From assembly GCF_002930105.1 (NCBI RefSeq), contig NZ_PJRN01000011.1, positions 62,001-126,000 on the forward strand: a DNA stretch of 64,000 nucleotides, written 5' to 3'. This document shows positions 5,115 to 9,899 of this stretch, piece after piece. The position numbers were made by a program, and so were the translations under genes. Positions within the stretch are counted from its first letter, which is position 1; every line of letters begins with the position of its first letter. Source of the DNA: Billgrantia saliphila (lineage in GTDB: Bacteria > Pseudomonadota > Gammaproteobacteria > Pseudomonadales > Halomonadaceae). A model generated the notes under the pieces. It was not told the origin of the DNA, did not search any database, and was given only the letters and a program-made list of their open reading frames with translations.

Positions 5115-5579
5115 TCAGGCCTCGTCCGAAGGCCGGCGATAGAGGGTGTCGGGATCGATAAGCGGTTCGCTGGCAATGCGCGCCGACTCGCCTTCCAGTG
5201 CGATGTAGAAGCAGCTGCGCCGGCCGGTGTGGCACGCCGGTCCTGTTTGCTCCACCTGCAGCAGCAGAGTATCGCCGTCACAGTCGAGGCTTGCCGTGCG
5301 CAGGTACTGCTGCTGGCCGGACGACTCTCCCTTGCGCCATAGCTTGCCACGCGAGCGCGACCAGTAGCAGACCCGCCCGGTCGTCAGGGTTTCTTCCAGC
5401 GCCTCGCGATTCATCCAGGCCATCATCAACACTTCGCCGCTGTCGTGCTGCTGAGCGATGGCGGGAATCAGACCGTCGTCATTAAAGCGTACGGCAGCGA
5501 GGATTTGTCTCAAGGGTACGCACGCATCGCGCGGTGCTCGCTCGAGTTCCTTCAAGGTGTCGGCCATGGTCGGTTCCAT
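5115..5579 (-). CDS. hisI: Phosphoribosyl-AMP cyclohydrolase
   Basis: This 154-residue enzyme opens the purine ring of phosphoribosyl-AMP in step three of histidine synthesis. It retains the Mg site LDCDGDTLL and the zinc cysteines in ACHTGRRSC, plus the substrate loop [16 protein letters not shown]. No hisE domain is fused. It lies 15 bp downstream of zur and not in a his or tat cluster, which raises the possibility that it is a second, zinc-stress-related HisI copy. The start could be 5579 or 5567; both have only weak ribosome-binding sites. Confidence 0.93.
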
Positions 5580-5594
5580 CGTTCCGTTGCGGTA

Positions 5595-6047
5595 TCAGGC
5601 CTGGGCGGCGGCACCCAGACAGGCATCGCAGCTGCCCAGCAGCTCGATGGTCTGGCGCTCGACGCGAAAACCCAGCTCGCGCGCCCGGGTGATGAGCTGC
5701 GCGTCGACATCGTCGAGGTGGAGTTCCTCGACGCGGCCGCAGTGACGGCAGATCAGCAGTTGAAAGCCGTGGGCGTGTTCGGGGCAGGGGCAGGCGACAT
5801 AGGCGTTGAGCGACTCGATGCGATGCACGAGCCCCTGCTCGATAAGAAAATCCAGCGCTCGATAAACGGTGGGCGGTCGCGCCGCTGCGTGCTCGACGGC
5901 GAGACGGTCGAGCAGGTCGTAGGCCTTCAGACCGCCAGTTGCCGTGGCGATCATCTCGAGTACTCGTCGCCGGATCGGGGTGAAACGCACCCCGCGGCGC
6001 TGGCATTGTCTTTCGGCCTGCGCAAGCAGGACGCTTGAATCGGTCAT
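5595..6047 (-). CDS. zur: Zinc uptake regulator Zur (Fur family)
   Basis: This 150-residue Fur-family repressor has an N-terminal winged helix (residues about 15-85, including RPPTVYRALDFLIEQGLVH) and a C-terminal dimerisation domain with the two structural-zinc pairs CRHCG and CDAC. The C-terminus LLGSCDACLG is typical of Zur rather than Fur. Zur represses zinc import and zinc-sparing genes when zinc is abundant. It heads a tight group with hisI and yidD. I do not see an AT-rich Zur box in the short gap before it. Confidence 0.87.
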   Translation of the reverse strand: MTDSSVLLAQAERQCQRRGVRFTPIRRRVLEMIATATGGLKAYDLLDRLAVEHAAARPPTVYRALDFLIEQGLVHRIESLNAYVACPCPEHAHGFQLLICRHCGRVEELHLDDVDAQLITRARELGFRVERQTIELLGSCDACLGAAAQA

Positions 6048-6092: not shown

Positions 6093-7079
6093 TCAGGTAG
6101 CGGCCAGCGCAGGCTGCTCGTCGAGCGAGCGCAGCTCACCTCGCCGGGCGAAGTGGCGCTGTGAGAAAGCAACCCGCTCATTCACCCCGAGACCTTCGGG
6201 CTGCTTCTCCACCAGGTCCAGCCGACGGCGCAGCCCCTCGCCGTTCGCCATCTGGATCGCCAGACCGGGACGGGCATTGAGCTCCAGCAACATGGGACCG
6301 CGGTTGCGGTCGATCACCATATCGGTCCCCAGATAGCCGAGCCCGGTCATCTCGTAGCAACCGGCGGCCAGCTTGAGCAGATTGGTCCAGTCCGGAATGC
6401 GCAGGCTGGCGAGCTCGTGTCCCGTATCGGGATGATCCTGTCGCGACCGATCGAACTGGACGCCACGCACCGCCGTACCGGTAGCGATATCGAGCCCCAC
6501 GCCAACCGCACCCTGGTGCAGGTTTGCCTTCCCGTCGGAAGCTGCAGTGGAGAGGCGCATCATGGCCATGACCGGATAGCCGCGAAAGATGATCACACGA
6601 ATGTCCGGTACGCCCTCGTAAGTGTACTCGGAGAGCTTCTCGTCGAAGTTGATGAGCGCCTCGACCATGGCCACGTCCGCCGCTCCCCCCAGCGAATAGA
6701 GCCCCGACAGAATGTTCGAGACGTGACGATGCAGGTCCTCCAGACTCAGGCGAGCACCGCTCGGCTTGTGGAAGCCATCCTGGTCGACGCGCTCGATCAC
6801 CAGGATCCCCTTGCCACCGCTGCCCTTGGCCGGTTTGATGACGAAACCGTCGTGGCCGGAAATCATCTCACCGAGTCCCTTGATCTCGAACTGGGTGGAT
6901 ACCGTACCGATCAGCGCCGGCGAGGTAATGCCGTGCTTCTCGGCGAGCAGCTTGGTCTTCAGCTTATCGTCGACCAACGGATAGAGATGGCGTCTGTTGT
7001 AGCGACCGATGTAGCGAATGTTGCGCCGGTTCATGCCGATGATGCCGCGCTGCCTGAGCTGGCTTGGCCATACCCACAT
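6093..7079 (-). CDS. ATP-grasp ligase (alpha-L-glutamate ligase-like, RimK-related)
   Basis: This 328-residue ATP-grasp protein probably forms an amide bond on an unknown acceptor. The ATP-binding Gly-rich loop is FVIKPAKGSGGKGILVI (residues about 80-96), and the metal-binding site is MLLELNARPGLAIQMA (about 268-283). It matches the family annotated as alpha-L-glutamate ligase-like or sugar-transfer-associated ATP-grasp. It begins five bases after the 7TM-transglutaminase stop and is the last gene of a conserved three-gene set. The cytoplasmic enzyme presumably works with its membrane neighbour. The substrate is not known. Confidence 0.87.
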   Translation of the reverse strand: MWVWPSQLRQRGIIGMNRRNIRYIGRYNRRHLYPLVDDKLKTKLLAEKHGITSPALIGTVSTQFEIKGLGEMISGHDGFVIKPAKGSGGKGILVIERVDQDGFHKPSGARLSLEDLHRHVSNILSGLYSLGGAADVAMVEALINFDEKLSEYTYEGVPDIRVIIFRGYPVMAMMRLSTAASDGKANLHQGAVGVGLDIATGTAVRGVQFDRSRQDHPDTGHELASLRIPDWTNLLKLAAGCYEMTGLGYLGTDMVIDRNRGPMLLELNARPGLAIQMANGEGLRRRLDLVEKQPEGLGVNERVAFSQRHFARRGELRSLDEQPALAAT

Positions 7080-7084
7080 GATGT

Positions 7085-8590
7085 TCAGTCCTCGGTGACC
7101 GGTTTGAAGCGCCTCAACTCGAGCAGGCGATAACCCGTGTAGTTACCCAGCAGCATGATCAGCGCCATGATGATGAGCTGCACTCCCAGGAAATTGAAGG
7201 TGATGTGACGAATCCAGGGATTGTTCATGGCAAGGTACGCCAGTACCGCCGTTATGAGGCTGCCACCGCCCTGAATCACGACTTGTTTGGGACCTTCCTC
7301 TTCCCACAGTATCGACATGCGCTCGATGGTCCAGGCCAGAATGATCATCGGGAAGAAGGTGATCGTCAGCCCGGCGTTGAGTCCGACCCGATACGACAGT
7401 ACCGAAAAGATCGAGATGATGGCGATCACCGTGATGATGACCGCCGAGACTCGCGCCACCAGTAGTAGATTGAGGTAGGAAAGATAGTTGCGGATCACCA
7501 GGCCAACGGAGACGACCAGCAGGAAACCGATCAGCCCGGTTGGTAGGCTGGTCTGAATAAAGGCCAGTGCGATCAGTACCGGCATGAAGGTGCCGGAAGT
7601 CTTGAGACCCACCATGATGCGCAGGAATACCACGACCAGAGCGCCGATGGGGATCAGCAGAATGGTTTGGAACAGTGCCTGTTCCTCGAGTGGCAGGCTG
7701 TGGATCGAGAAGTTGAGCAGGGTATCGTCGGCCAGTTGGCTGCGCACCGCGGCGGCGGCCGGCTGGCTGCGTGACAGCATCGAGAAGGTGACCCGCGAGT
7801 TGGTCCCGCCCTGAACCTCGAGCACGGCGCGTCCGCCAGCCTCCCACAACAGCAGGTTCTCAGGCTGGCCCTGCGTGCCGGTCCTCGGATCGAACAACGC
7901 CCAGTTTTCCTCATCCTCGAAGACCTGGATCCACGGCGCCAGGGTCTGTCGGCGACGGCCGTCTTCCAATTGCAAGCCGCTGACCTCGCGGGCATGCACG
8001 CCAGCCTGGTTGAGTAGGCGAACGAGTAGGGGAGTGCGTTCGAACTGGGTAAGCAGCAGGCGCGTGTTTTCGCTCTGACGCTCCTCGTTGAAGTCTCGGA
8101 TCAATTCGCGGGCGAAGGTATAAGGATCGGCGCTACGCGCCCAGGCGCGTTCGATGACCTGGGCGGCGGCGGTGTCGTAGGGGCGCTCCCAAGTGACCTC
8201 GCGCAGCTCCGGTCGGTTGGCCTGCTGCCGGCGCGTATCCTCGGTGACTTGCAGCCGAACGGAATAGTAGAGCTGCTGACTGCCCGTCGCCTGGCGGATC
8301 GACCATTGCGCGCGACGACCGGACTCGTCCTGCAGGAACGAGAGCCCATAGCCTGGAGAAGCCGTGTTTTCGGTCAGAATGCGATAGCCAAGCTGATGCG
8401 ACGGCAGGGCGAAGTCTACCCGCACGGGCTCACCCAGGGCGGTGAAGTCGATGATCGCCTCGACTTCCCAGATTTGACGCTGCTCGCCTGGCGTCCAGGG
8501 AACTTCGAGCTGGATGTGCCGGTACAGGCTCGTGCCGATACCCAGCACCAACAGCAGACCCACGATGATATAGAAGGGCAGTCGCGACAT
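7085..8590 (-). CDS. 7TM protein with inactive transglutaminase-like periplasmic domain
   Basis: This 501-residue inner-membrane protein has one N-terminal membrane helix (residues about 5-22), a periplasmic region of about 280 residues, and six to seven helices between residues about 310 and 490. The periplasmic part contains a transglutaminase-like fold, but the expected catalytic Cys position reads ERTPLLVRLLNQ and the His position reads LAPWIQVF. Only the Asp of ALFDPRTG is kept, so it should be non-catalytic. It matches the Transglut_i_TM plus 7TM_transglut architecture. The neighbours are a retropepsin-like lipoprotein upstream and an ATP-grasp ligase downstream. Confidence 0.88.
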   Translation of the reverse strand: MSRLPFYIIVGLLLVLGIGTSLYRHIQLEVPWTPGEQRQIWEVEAIIDFTALGEPVRVDFALPSHQLGYRILTENTASPGYGLSFLQDESGRRAQWSIRQATGSQQLYYSVRLQVTEDTRRQQANRPELREVTWERPYDTAAAQVIERAWARSADPYTFARELIRDFNEERQSENTRLLLTQFERTPLLVRLLNQAGVHAREVSGLQLEDGRRRQTLAPWIQVFEDEENWALFDPRTGTQGQPENLLLWEAGGRAVLEVQGGTNSRVTFSMLSRSQPAAAAVRSQLADDTLLNFSIHSLPLEEQALFQTILLIPIGALVVVFLRIMVGLKTSGTFMPVLIALAFIQTSLPTGLIGFLLVVSVGLVIRNYLSYLNLLLVARVSAVIITVIAIISIFSVLSYRVGLNAGLTITFFPMIILAWTIERMSILWEEEGPKQVVIQGGGSLITAVLAYLAMNNPWIRHITFNFLGVQLIIMALIMLLGNYTGYRLLELRRFKPVTED

Positions 8591-8629
8591 GAATCATCCT
8601 TGCAAGGGGCTAGCGGGGGACGCTCGGCG

Positions 8630-9484
8630 TTAGCCTTCCTCTTCGTCCCGGTCGTTGATTTCGTCCTGTGCCGCTTCGGAGGCAGGCCGACCGCCAGGAA
8701 ACTCGGGACGCGGATGAATGTAGTCTTCAGCCACATCGATCAGGGCGATATCCATCAAGAAGCGCCGCCCCAGCAGCACGGGATAGTTGAGGTGCGTGCG
8801 ATCGTTGAGGGTAAATTCGACCGGCTCGCGAATCGGTCCCAGGGTCATCAGCAGACTCACCACCGGGCGTGATTCACTGCCCGCCGCTTGCAGGATGCGG
8901 ACCCGACGCTCGATAGGTCGCTCGATCCATTCATCGCGAACGCCTTCGACGATCACGTCATCCTCGTTCAGGCCCAGCTTGAAACGCACCCAATCCTCGC
9001 CATCACGCTCGAAGCGGGTGATGTCGGTGGCCGACAGCGAGGAGGTGTTGGCACCCGAATCGACCCGCGCTCGCAGGTAGGTACCGACATCCGGCAGGCC
9101 GATCCATTCGGAGCGTCCAACCATGGCCTTGTTGGACAGGTTCTCGGCGAGCTGCTCGTTGCACTCGGCCGGCACCACGACAGGGTCTTCGCTGCGCTGC
9201 TCGAGTCGCTCGATATCGGCGCGCAGATGGCGCAGCGTGGCGCCGGCATCGCGGAATTCCGCTAGCAGGGTTTCCTGGCGTTGCGACTGCTCATCGAGGC
9301 GTGCATCGGTACGATCACAGCGTGTGACGAGCTGTTGCTCGAGCTGGTCGATGCGCGTCTCGAAGGCACTGGGGTCGAGCGTAGGCTCCGCTTCACGGTC
9401 GACTCCGGGGCTAAGGGCGCATCCGCTGAGCAGCAGGGAAGCCAGCAACCAGGGAAAGGGAGCGGATAGCGTTCTCGATCGCAT
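8630..9484 (-). CDS. Lipoprotein retropepsin-like protease ("ATP-dependent zinc protease" family)
   Basis: This 284-residue protein starts with a lipoprotein signal whose lipobox is LLLSGC, putting the lipidated Cys at residue 22. The +2 residue is Ala, consistent with outer-membrane sorting. A coiled coil spans about residues 40-105, followed by an aspartic-protease-like domain with VDSGANTSSLS and the flap-side motif PVLLGRRFLMD. Databases often call this family ATP-dependent zinc proteases, but the visible motif is DSGA, as in retropepsins. The reading frame stays open to 9874; the start at 9484 is chosen because it begins the signal peptide. It is 39 bp upstream of the 7TM-transglutaminase gene. 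Confidence 0.85.
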   Translation of the reverse strand: MRSRTLSAPFPWLLASLLLSGCALSPGVDREAEPTLDPSAFETRIDQLEQQLVTRCDRTDARLDEQSQRQETLLAEFRDAGATLRHLRADIERLEQRSEDPVVVPAECNEQLAENLSNKAMVGRSEWIGLPDVGTYLRARVDSGANTSSLSATDITRFERDGEDWVRFKLGLNEDDVIVEGVRDEWIERPIERRVRILQAAGSESRPVVSLLMTLGPIREPVEFTLNDRTHLNYPVLLGRRFLMDIALIDVAEDYIHPRPEFPGGRPASEAAQDEINDRDEEEG

Positions 9485-9838
9485 GATGGGTCGACGGTCT
9501 CCGGAAGGACATTGGTTAGCAGAGCTGGACAGGATGAAACGCGGACGCAGATGCCGCGCAAAAATACGACGTGAGATGATAAGGAGTCGAAGCCACGCTT
9601 GTCCAACACCGCAGCAAGGAGTTGATTTAACATAATATACATTATGCGAACTCACGGCATATCCATAGGCTGCGTCATTCGCATGCCGACCACGCGGGTC
9701 TTCATCTGGTGACGGACGCATCCCTGTTGGCCGTGTGCCTGACATTGCATCCTCCTGAGCACCTGTCGCGCGGCCACGCACATTCCTCCTTCTGAGCAAT
9801 GCGATCGGTTTGGCATGGAGCGATCCGATATACGCAAA
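9485..9838. other. Gene-poor spacer between the retropepsin gene and the ectoine operon
   Basis: I see no convincing gene here. On the minus strand the frame of the retropepsin gene stays open through most of it, but the encoded sequence has no recognisable character. The notable element is an AT-rich palindrome at 9631-9646. Confidence 0.6.
9631..9646 (-). promoter_or_regulatory. AT-rich palindrome, probable promoter/operator of the retropepsin operon
   Basis: CATAAT-ATAC-ATTATG is a perfect 6-4-6 inverted repeat in the only AT-rich stretch upstream of the three-gene module. On the minus strand it contains a TATTAT that could serve as a -10 element. It lies about 147 bp before the start at 9484. 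The binding factor is unknown. Confidence 0.4.
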
Positions 9839-9865
9839 CGAACCCCGGCTTTCGGCCGGGGTTCG
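9839..9865 (-). terminator. Terminator of the ectoine operon
   Basis: Positions 9839-9849 pair perfectly with 9855-9865 around a five-base loop. The hairpin lies 34 bp downstream of the ectC stop and is followed on the minus strand by a short TTT. It looks like an intrinsic terminator with a weak T-tract. Confidence 0.75.
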
Positions 9866-9899
9866 TTGCATCATTGCCGGAACAGCTCCGGATCACACC

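Follow-up and report, generated by a model that had tools for sequence, protein, structure and literature searches.

The window analysed here, a stretch of 64,000 nucleotides of Billgrantia saliphila DNA (contig NZ_PJRN01000011.1, positions 62,001 to 126,000), sits on contig C2 of a 4.3-Mb genome and carries a set of three genes coding for a lipoprotein retropepsin, a transglutaminase-like protein joined to a seven-transmembrane (7TM) domain, and an ATP-grasp ligase. The ectoine genes precede the retropepsin gene, and the order is then rloA, rloB and rloC, all on the minus strand, with intergenic gaps of 39 bp between the first two genes and 5 bp between the last two. It is almost certain that these genes are an rlo operon. 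That operon was described in mBio in 2025 as rloABC in Pseudomonas aeruginosa (PMC12239564), and the set is therefore not new; the window copy is a further member. The 2025 report, like the other papers cited below by accession, is drawn on here in part. In P. aeruginosa it was shown that three secreted RloA proteases are redundant and required for growth without salt, that RloA cleaves runs of at least eight Glu and its activity is required in vivo, and that the triple protease mutant grows fully again at low osmolarity once rloB or rloC is deleted (PMC12239564). These genetics place the three genes in one pathway.

Gene content of the rlo locus

The layout in the window is that of rlo, with the retropepsin, transglutaminase-7TM and ATP-grasp genes in order on one strand. 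Window RloA is a secreted clan-AA retropepsin with a D-T/S-G-A motif, and window RloB is a 7TM fusion with a transglutaminase domain that lacks the catalytic residues. The nearest NCBIfam models to the window proteins were those of the RloB and RloA types. The scores stayed under the NCBI naming cut-offs (RloB, 343.4 against 900; RloA3, 118.9 against 210; RloA2, 103.7 against 250; RloA1, 84.6 against 280), which we regard as thresholds set narrowly for orthologues that bear the name. They are a naming rule and no defining trait, and the RloB, RloA1 and RloA2 models are of the type 'exception'.

The retropepsin was matched by PF05618 (E-value 1.4e-37) and by the solved chains 9g59, 9g58 and 2pma. 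Its reading frame is open up to 9874, and the start at 9484 was taken as correct since the ATG there yields a lipoprotein signal peptide with LLSGC at its end; counted from this start, the catalytic Asp within RVDSGA is residue 142. Thus the lipoprotein retropepsin with a DSGA motif that the initial annotation had described, including its end at 9484, was confirmed. Sorting of the protein to the outer membrane is predicted from the Ala at position +2, by a rule which we take to apply here. Using an alignment to chains 9g59 and 9g58, with residue arithmetic through 9g58, it was found that window RloA has Arg at all four positions equivalent to the poly-Glu contacts K46, R92, R114 and R137 of P. 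aeruginosa RloA, and that Arg stands at these positions in 78, 79 (plus one Lys), 80 and 80 of 80 RloA rows. The DSG variant occurs in 37 of the 80 rows; the rlo report gives the retropepsin motif as DTG (PMC12239564). A pattern search detected a lipobox in 73 of the 80 rows, and in 72 of these, the measurable ones, the lipid Cys and the catalytic Asp are separated by 104-132 residues, mostly near 117. Since its length varies so little, the spacer may be a tether with a fixed reach. In a word search of the main text of PMC12239564 the words 'lipoprotein' and 'coiled' were absent. A second secreted retropepsin of the same genome (L002:1417-2034, G000 C42) scored 242.2 against the RloA3 cut-off of 210.

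Window RloB was matched by PF14400 and PF14402 with E-values of 4.4e-58 and 1.3e-108. As the initial annotation had claimed, its transglutaminase-like domain is without the catalytic Cys and His, neither of which is aligned in the window row of a 139-row alignment; both are lacking in 136 of the 139 rows, and the Cys-His-Asp triad is complete in the other three (L032, L033 and L061). Seven longer loci (L075, L076, L077, L208, L216, L217 and L218), some of which share genomes with the three triad-complete rows, have triad motifs and match the active-type PF01841, so that the family has active-type members as well as inactive ones. An AlphaFold2 model of RloB built from 58 sequences (mean predicted local distance difference test score 77.6, predicted template modelling score (pTM) 0.54) consists of one N-terminal helix, a periplasmic transglutaminase-fold domain and a helical membrane domain, from which we read a probable topology of N-terminus inside, periplasmic domain, seven helices and C-terminus inside. 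When the full model was compared to the PDB a clear match was obtained for the transglutaminase-like part only, as with 3isr (Z 14.2, root mean square deviation 3.8, 213 aligned residues) and TgpA 6g49 (Z 6.8, deviation 4.2, 167 aligned residues). Efflux-pump structures matched the RloB helices at Z about 6, a level that is common for the tool.

The third protein, RloC, was matched by PF14397 (E-value 2.1e-95) and by TIGR02291, with 449.7 bits against a cut-off of 314.2. K82, D253, E266 and N268, which are presumably the nucleotide and metal ligands, are each conserved in at least 97% of 118 RloC-type rows. The ATP-grasp ligase described at first was confirmed.

Table. Features of the rlo locus and its surroundings (window coordinates)
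Feature	Coordinates	Strand	Basis
rloA-type gene, lipoprotein retropepsin of 284 aa with lipobox Cys22 and catalytic Asp142 (DSGA)	8630..9484	-	Pfam, alignment
RloA residues 23-120, spacer from lipid anchor to protease domain	9125..9418	-	alignment
RloA residues 121-261, retropepsin domain	8702..9124	-	alignment; PDB chain 9g58 mapping
rloB-type gene, 501 aa, 7TM domain preceded by a periplasmic transglutaminase-like domain that lacks Cys/His	7085..8590	-	Pfam, alignment, AlphaFold2
RloB residues 37-276, transglutaminase-like periplasmic domain	7763..8482	-	AlphaFold2 model, fold comparison
RloB residues 301-491, membrane helices of 7TM domain (PF14402)	7118..7690	-	Pfam, AlphaFold2
rloC-type gene, 328-aa ATP-grasp ligase (PF14397, TIGR02291)	6093..7079	-	Pfam, NCBIfam
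Strong hairpin 3' of ectC, probable terminator between ectoine genes and rlo	9837..9867	-	-33 kcal/mol for 61-nt stretch, z -5.4
Fur/Zur-like regulator downstream of rloC, neighbour outside the module	5595..6047	-	family scan, locus comparison

Like P. aeruginosa rloABC, the window set combines in the same order a secreted retropepsin, an inactive transglutaminase-7TM protein and an ATP-grasp protein, with the same domains and basic residues at the poly-Glu contacts. It differs in that the lipid Cys of window RloA, a lipoprotein, is separated from the catalytic Asp by 120 residues, whereas the catalytic Asp of P. aeruginosa is residue 48, in its DSGA rather than DTGA motif, and in scoring under the RloA and RloB naming cut-offs. 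The genome also resembles P. aeruginosa in possessing, besides rlo, a second secreted retropepsin and a RimB-RimK pair; the latter is found on contig C11, with RimK above its cut-off and RimB as the best model at 110.6 of 200 bits. RimB-RimK likewise pairs a retropepsin with an ATP-grasp protein of related domains (PMC11957791), but is cytosolic and has no 7TM partner. The lipoprotein signal of the window protease sets the locus apart from RimBK, in which a cytosolic protease lies beside an S6-glutamate ligase. In Shewanella vesiculosa HM2192 is also an inactive transglutaminase joined to seven helices, and its disruption changes membrane-vesicle production; unlike rlo, it was treated as a single gene and not as an operon (PMC12096838). 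Another paper deals with other transglutaminase and ATP-grasp domains (PMC3597751).

Conservation of the locus and variation of its partners

The initial annotation had proposed that the three genes belong together, a view that scattering in relatives would have refuted. Scattering was not found: in a set of 80 named loci, those ranking highest among at least 576, the A-B-C order on one strand was present in 79, and the exception ends at a contig end. The closest 7TM domain in this set, that of Billgrantia antri, has 98% identity to the window's. In 40 stretches around PF14402 or PF14102 loci RloB was found in 37, each with an adjoining RloC-type gene, and the retropepsin, RloB and RloC genes followed in order in 31 of these 37. 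PF14402 was detected in 34 of 200 genomes sampled at the level of the phylum and in 30 of 38 relatives, in 11 of 240 and 5 of 78 genomes from the classes of G087 and G140, and in 11 of 298 genomes of family f32. One alignment (A3) held the window and 57 of 58 picked named sequences, L190 being omitted as its start is unclear, and another (A4) held the window and 39 named loci.

A wider set of 138 loci with the 7TM domain showed that the protease is not the sole partner of the other two proteins. A retropepsin was present in 117 loci, directly upstream on the same strand in 114, and a homologue of a predicted outer-membrane barrel in 16; one locus (L073) has both and six have neither. As this set includes genomes twice, from two sets, the final 200 residues of each frame were also used to tell distinct loci apart, which gave 130, of which 108 have the retropepsin only, 15 the barrel only, one both and six neither. 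In L153, L209, L217 and L218, all without either partner, the contig ends on the partner side (in L218, on the ligase side). The near-constant core is the 7TM protein and the ATP-grasp ligase, and the third partner varies. Genome G225 was observed to carry, beside a complete rlo set (L091), a further RloB-RloC pair (L092) that has neither protease nor barrel, and in L215 a porin-like frame, recognised by eye, lies just upstream of the retropepsin.

In family f32 the predicted barrel lies directly upstream of the 7TM protein in 11 of 12 loci. These eleven 7TM proteins match PF14402 only, with no transglutaminase match, and the ligase follows in ten, the eleventh locus ending at a contig end. 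The twelfth (L228:4616-6673) encodes a 686-aa fusion of the 7TM domain with an ATP-grasp domain of the D-Ala-D-Ala-ligase type. Family f26 has a ligase and a transglutaminase-7TM protein of the active type, after which comes a TPR protein in five of five loci and a barrel in the four uncut ones; a TPR protein and a barrel lie downstream in L075-L077, L208 and L216. A second fusion was found in L208:2794-8360 (G876), where active-type transglutaminase, 7TM and PF14397 ATP-grasp domains share one 845-aa frame before the TPR and barrel genes. Since the topology of RloB was read as C-terminus inside, a fused ligase would be placed in the cytosol. In L073:3665-7919 a RimB-type gene, RimK, the barrel, the 7TM protein and the ATP-grasp ligase are consecutive on one strand; the best model for the retropepsin is RimB, at 114.9 bits against a cut-off of 200, and RimK reached 413.1 against 331. 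For seven of the barrel proteins the counts of alternating strands were reached by 0-7 of 300 shuffles, and the last residue is aromatic in six. The barrel queries came from four loci (L073, L074, L077 and L208), and therefore unrelated barrels would be missed.

Proposed function and its alternatives

We tentatively favour, at a little short of an even chance for the mechanism in full, the reading that RloBC is a synthase-exporter and RloA a protease that cuts its product. RloC, at the cytoplasmic face, would use ATP to build, from Glu or some other acidic amino acid, a peptide chain which the 7TM domain of RloB would move into the periplasm as it grows and which the non-catalytic transglutaminase-like domain might bind or guide there. 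RloA, tethered to the outer membrane by its spacer of fairly constant length, would then cut the chain. Without RloA an acidic polymer would build up in the periplasm and pull in water and counter-ions, an effect that the cell would not survive at low osmolarity; the supply of the polymer would stop if RloB or RloC were lost. An active RloBC with RloA off is lethal in this model, which fits the Pseudomonas observation (PMC12239564). A ligase that is fused to a membrane domain or nearly always beside it, in company of a barrel or a periplasmic protease, looks like vectorial peptide synthesis and export. What was observed here are the domains, their order and conservation, the fusions and the switch of partner; what the product is, that it is exported and where it is cut are what we infer.

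The poly-gamma-glutamate synthase PgsB-PgsC-PgsA likewise has a cytosolic ligase, a membrane subunit and degradation outside the cytoplasm, a likeness that would concern the proposed model only; its ligase fold presumably differs from that of RloC. Homology of the 7TM domain to PgsC was an idea formed by eye, and profile comparison with controls gave it no support. The first comparisons gave P values of 0.02-0.07 in local mode and of 0.27 and 0.03 in two global runs. Against a canonical PgsC (G451) the 7TM profile scored 16.9, compared with 17.7 for the reversed profile, and a score as high was reached by 34 of 150 block shuffles. A loose scan of 30 genomes listed the RloB locus in two, with E-values of 2.1 and 3.3, and the reverse scan listed no PgsC locus. 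Alignment A1 held 32 of the 58 7TM loci L004-L061, and in alignment A2 nine of ten rows match PF14102 and one tandem-PgsC row was wrongly cut. A weak PF14102 match in G250 resembles what we take to be haem A synthase. Proteins with two tandem PgsC/CapC domains, about 1080-1120 aa where complete, were seen in G235, in G667 and in five genomes that belong to one family (L062-L072 except L067, L078-L080, L202 and L203), and in G451 (L201) a single-domain PgsC follows a 406-aa frame that by eye resembles a Mur-type ligase.

Several points weigh against the synthesis and export model. The acidic product is a predicted one, and as TIGR02291 is a 'glutamate ligase-like' model the amino acid substrate of RloC is putative. 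None of the 32 members of the 7TM alignment matched PF14102, sequence comparison gave no solved relative of the 7TM domain, and the domain modelled alone reached a weak pTM of 0.49, so that export by RloB is argued from context. The barrels were identified from strand pattern, C-terminal residue and Pfam matches that are weak and none above cut-off. L092 and L228 have neither protease nor barrel and do not lie at contig ends, the 7TM gene of L209 has no adjoining ligase on its uncut side, and adjacency to RimBK occurs in just one of 12 loci of the family of L073. In P. aeruginosa the other phenotypes of the triple mutant were rescued partly by loss of rloB or rloC, and the single deletions gave ampicillin sensitivity, shorter cells and, for rloC, less biofilm, suggesting that RloBC does more than make a harmful product; the authors also allow for a protein that carries polyglutamate, besides polyglutamate in free form (PMC12239564).

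That last consideration leads to a rather unlikely alternative, in which RloC would add a Glu chain to a protein or cell-wall precursor, RloB would carry or present the target and RloA would trim the tail, as a periplasmic analogue of RimK and RimB acting on S6. Cleavage by RloA of a poly-Glu tail on a protein in vitro speaks for it (PMC12239564), as does RimK, which modifies RpsF and also produces free poly-alpha-glutamate (PMC11957791), and polyglutamylation of a periplasmic target predicts genetics similar to those of a free polymer. However, the barrel-linked versions suit a secreted product better, and the fourth gene that such a substrate might be, for which the initial annotation had suggested a search, did not recur outside the window's family, a weak objection since the queries there were the window genes only; the three-gene order itself was conserved. 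It is improbable that RloB is instead a sensor or signalling protein, in which the transglutaminase-like domain would control the ligase on binding a ligand that the other proteins make or release in the periplasm. Non-catalytic folds often turn into binding domains, and loss of the aligned Cys and His in nearly all RloB rows would agree with this. Yet the eleven barrel-linked proteins of f32 do without a transglutaminase match and the ligase still follows in the ten uncut loci, the triad motifs are kept in the seven other loci, and the near-constant part is the 7TM domain with the ligase. The sensing role that the initial annotation had given to the 7TM protein is possible, but the ATP-grasp fusions and the pairing with predicted barrels in other lineages fit synthesis and export better.

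The position of the set beside the ectoine genes had initially been read as pointing to osmotic stress, and it could be proposed that rlo assists the ectoine system at high salt, which we regard as very improbable. The fetched flanks were for the most part limited to about 5 kb. Within them EctC was found in 14 of the 19 loci from the window's family as against none of the other 18 among the 37 RloB loci; it is near rlo in 23 of the 80 named loci, all 23 with a Zur-like neighbour, and in none of the 46 without one. The adjacency is lineage-specific. In the window ectC and rloA are separated by a 415-bp gap that contains the strong hairpin, and since the linkage is confined to part of the window's lineage and runs across this gap, it says little about function. 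Protection at high salt is the usual role of ectoine, the opposite of the hypo-osmotic rlo phenotype, which in P. aeruginosa appears at low osmolarity (PMC12239564). The hairpin was not listed by a terminator scan, and the promoter scan, with one promoter-like site against 1.1 expected, was uninformative. On the other side of the set, the Fur/Zur-like regulator and HisI (5115-6047) lie 3' of rloC in most loci of the window's family.

The comparative result, namely the constant 7TM-ligase core, the switch of partner and the fusions, may be new; no publication on the barrel partner or on export by RloB was recognised among the matches listed, the 2009 survey of these domains (Iyer et al.) being outside the scope. 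A broader proposal, which we consider doubtful, is that RloBC and its relatives are a previously unrecognised class of Gram-negative ATP-grasp peptide-polymer synthase-exporters, in which one branch, with the barrel, would secrete its polymer, and the rlo branch, with the tethered retropepsin, would retain a short acidic periplasmic peptide as an osmotic buffer, a counterpart of the periplasmic glucans. The roles of RloB and RloC are left open by the published work as drawn on here (PMC12239564). If the synthesis and export model is true, export of an acidic peptide would account both for the lethal effect of protease loss at low osmolarity and for its rescue when a partner is lost. It would also point to a bacterial polymer that is worth seeking, for which the fusions and barrel-linked versions might serve as simple systems.

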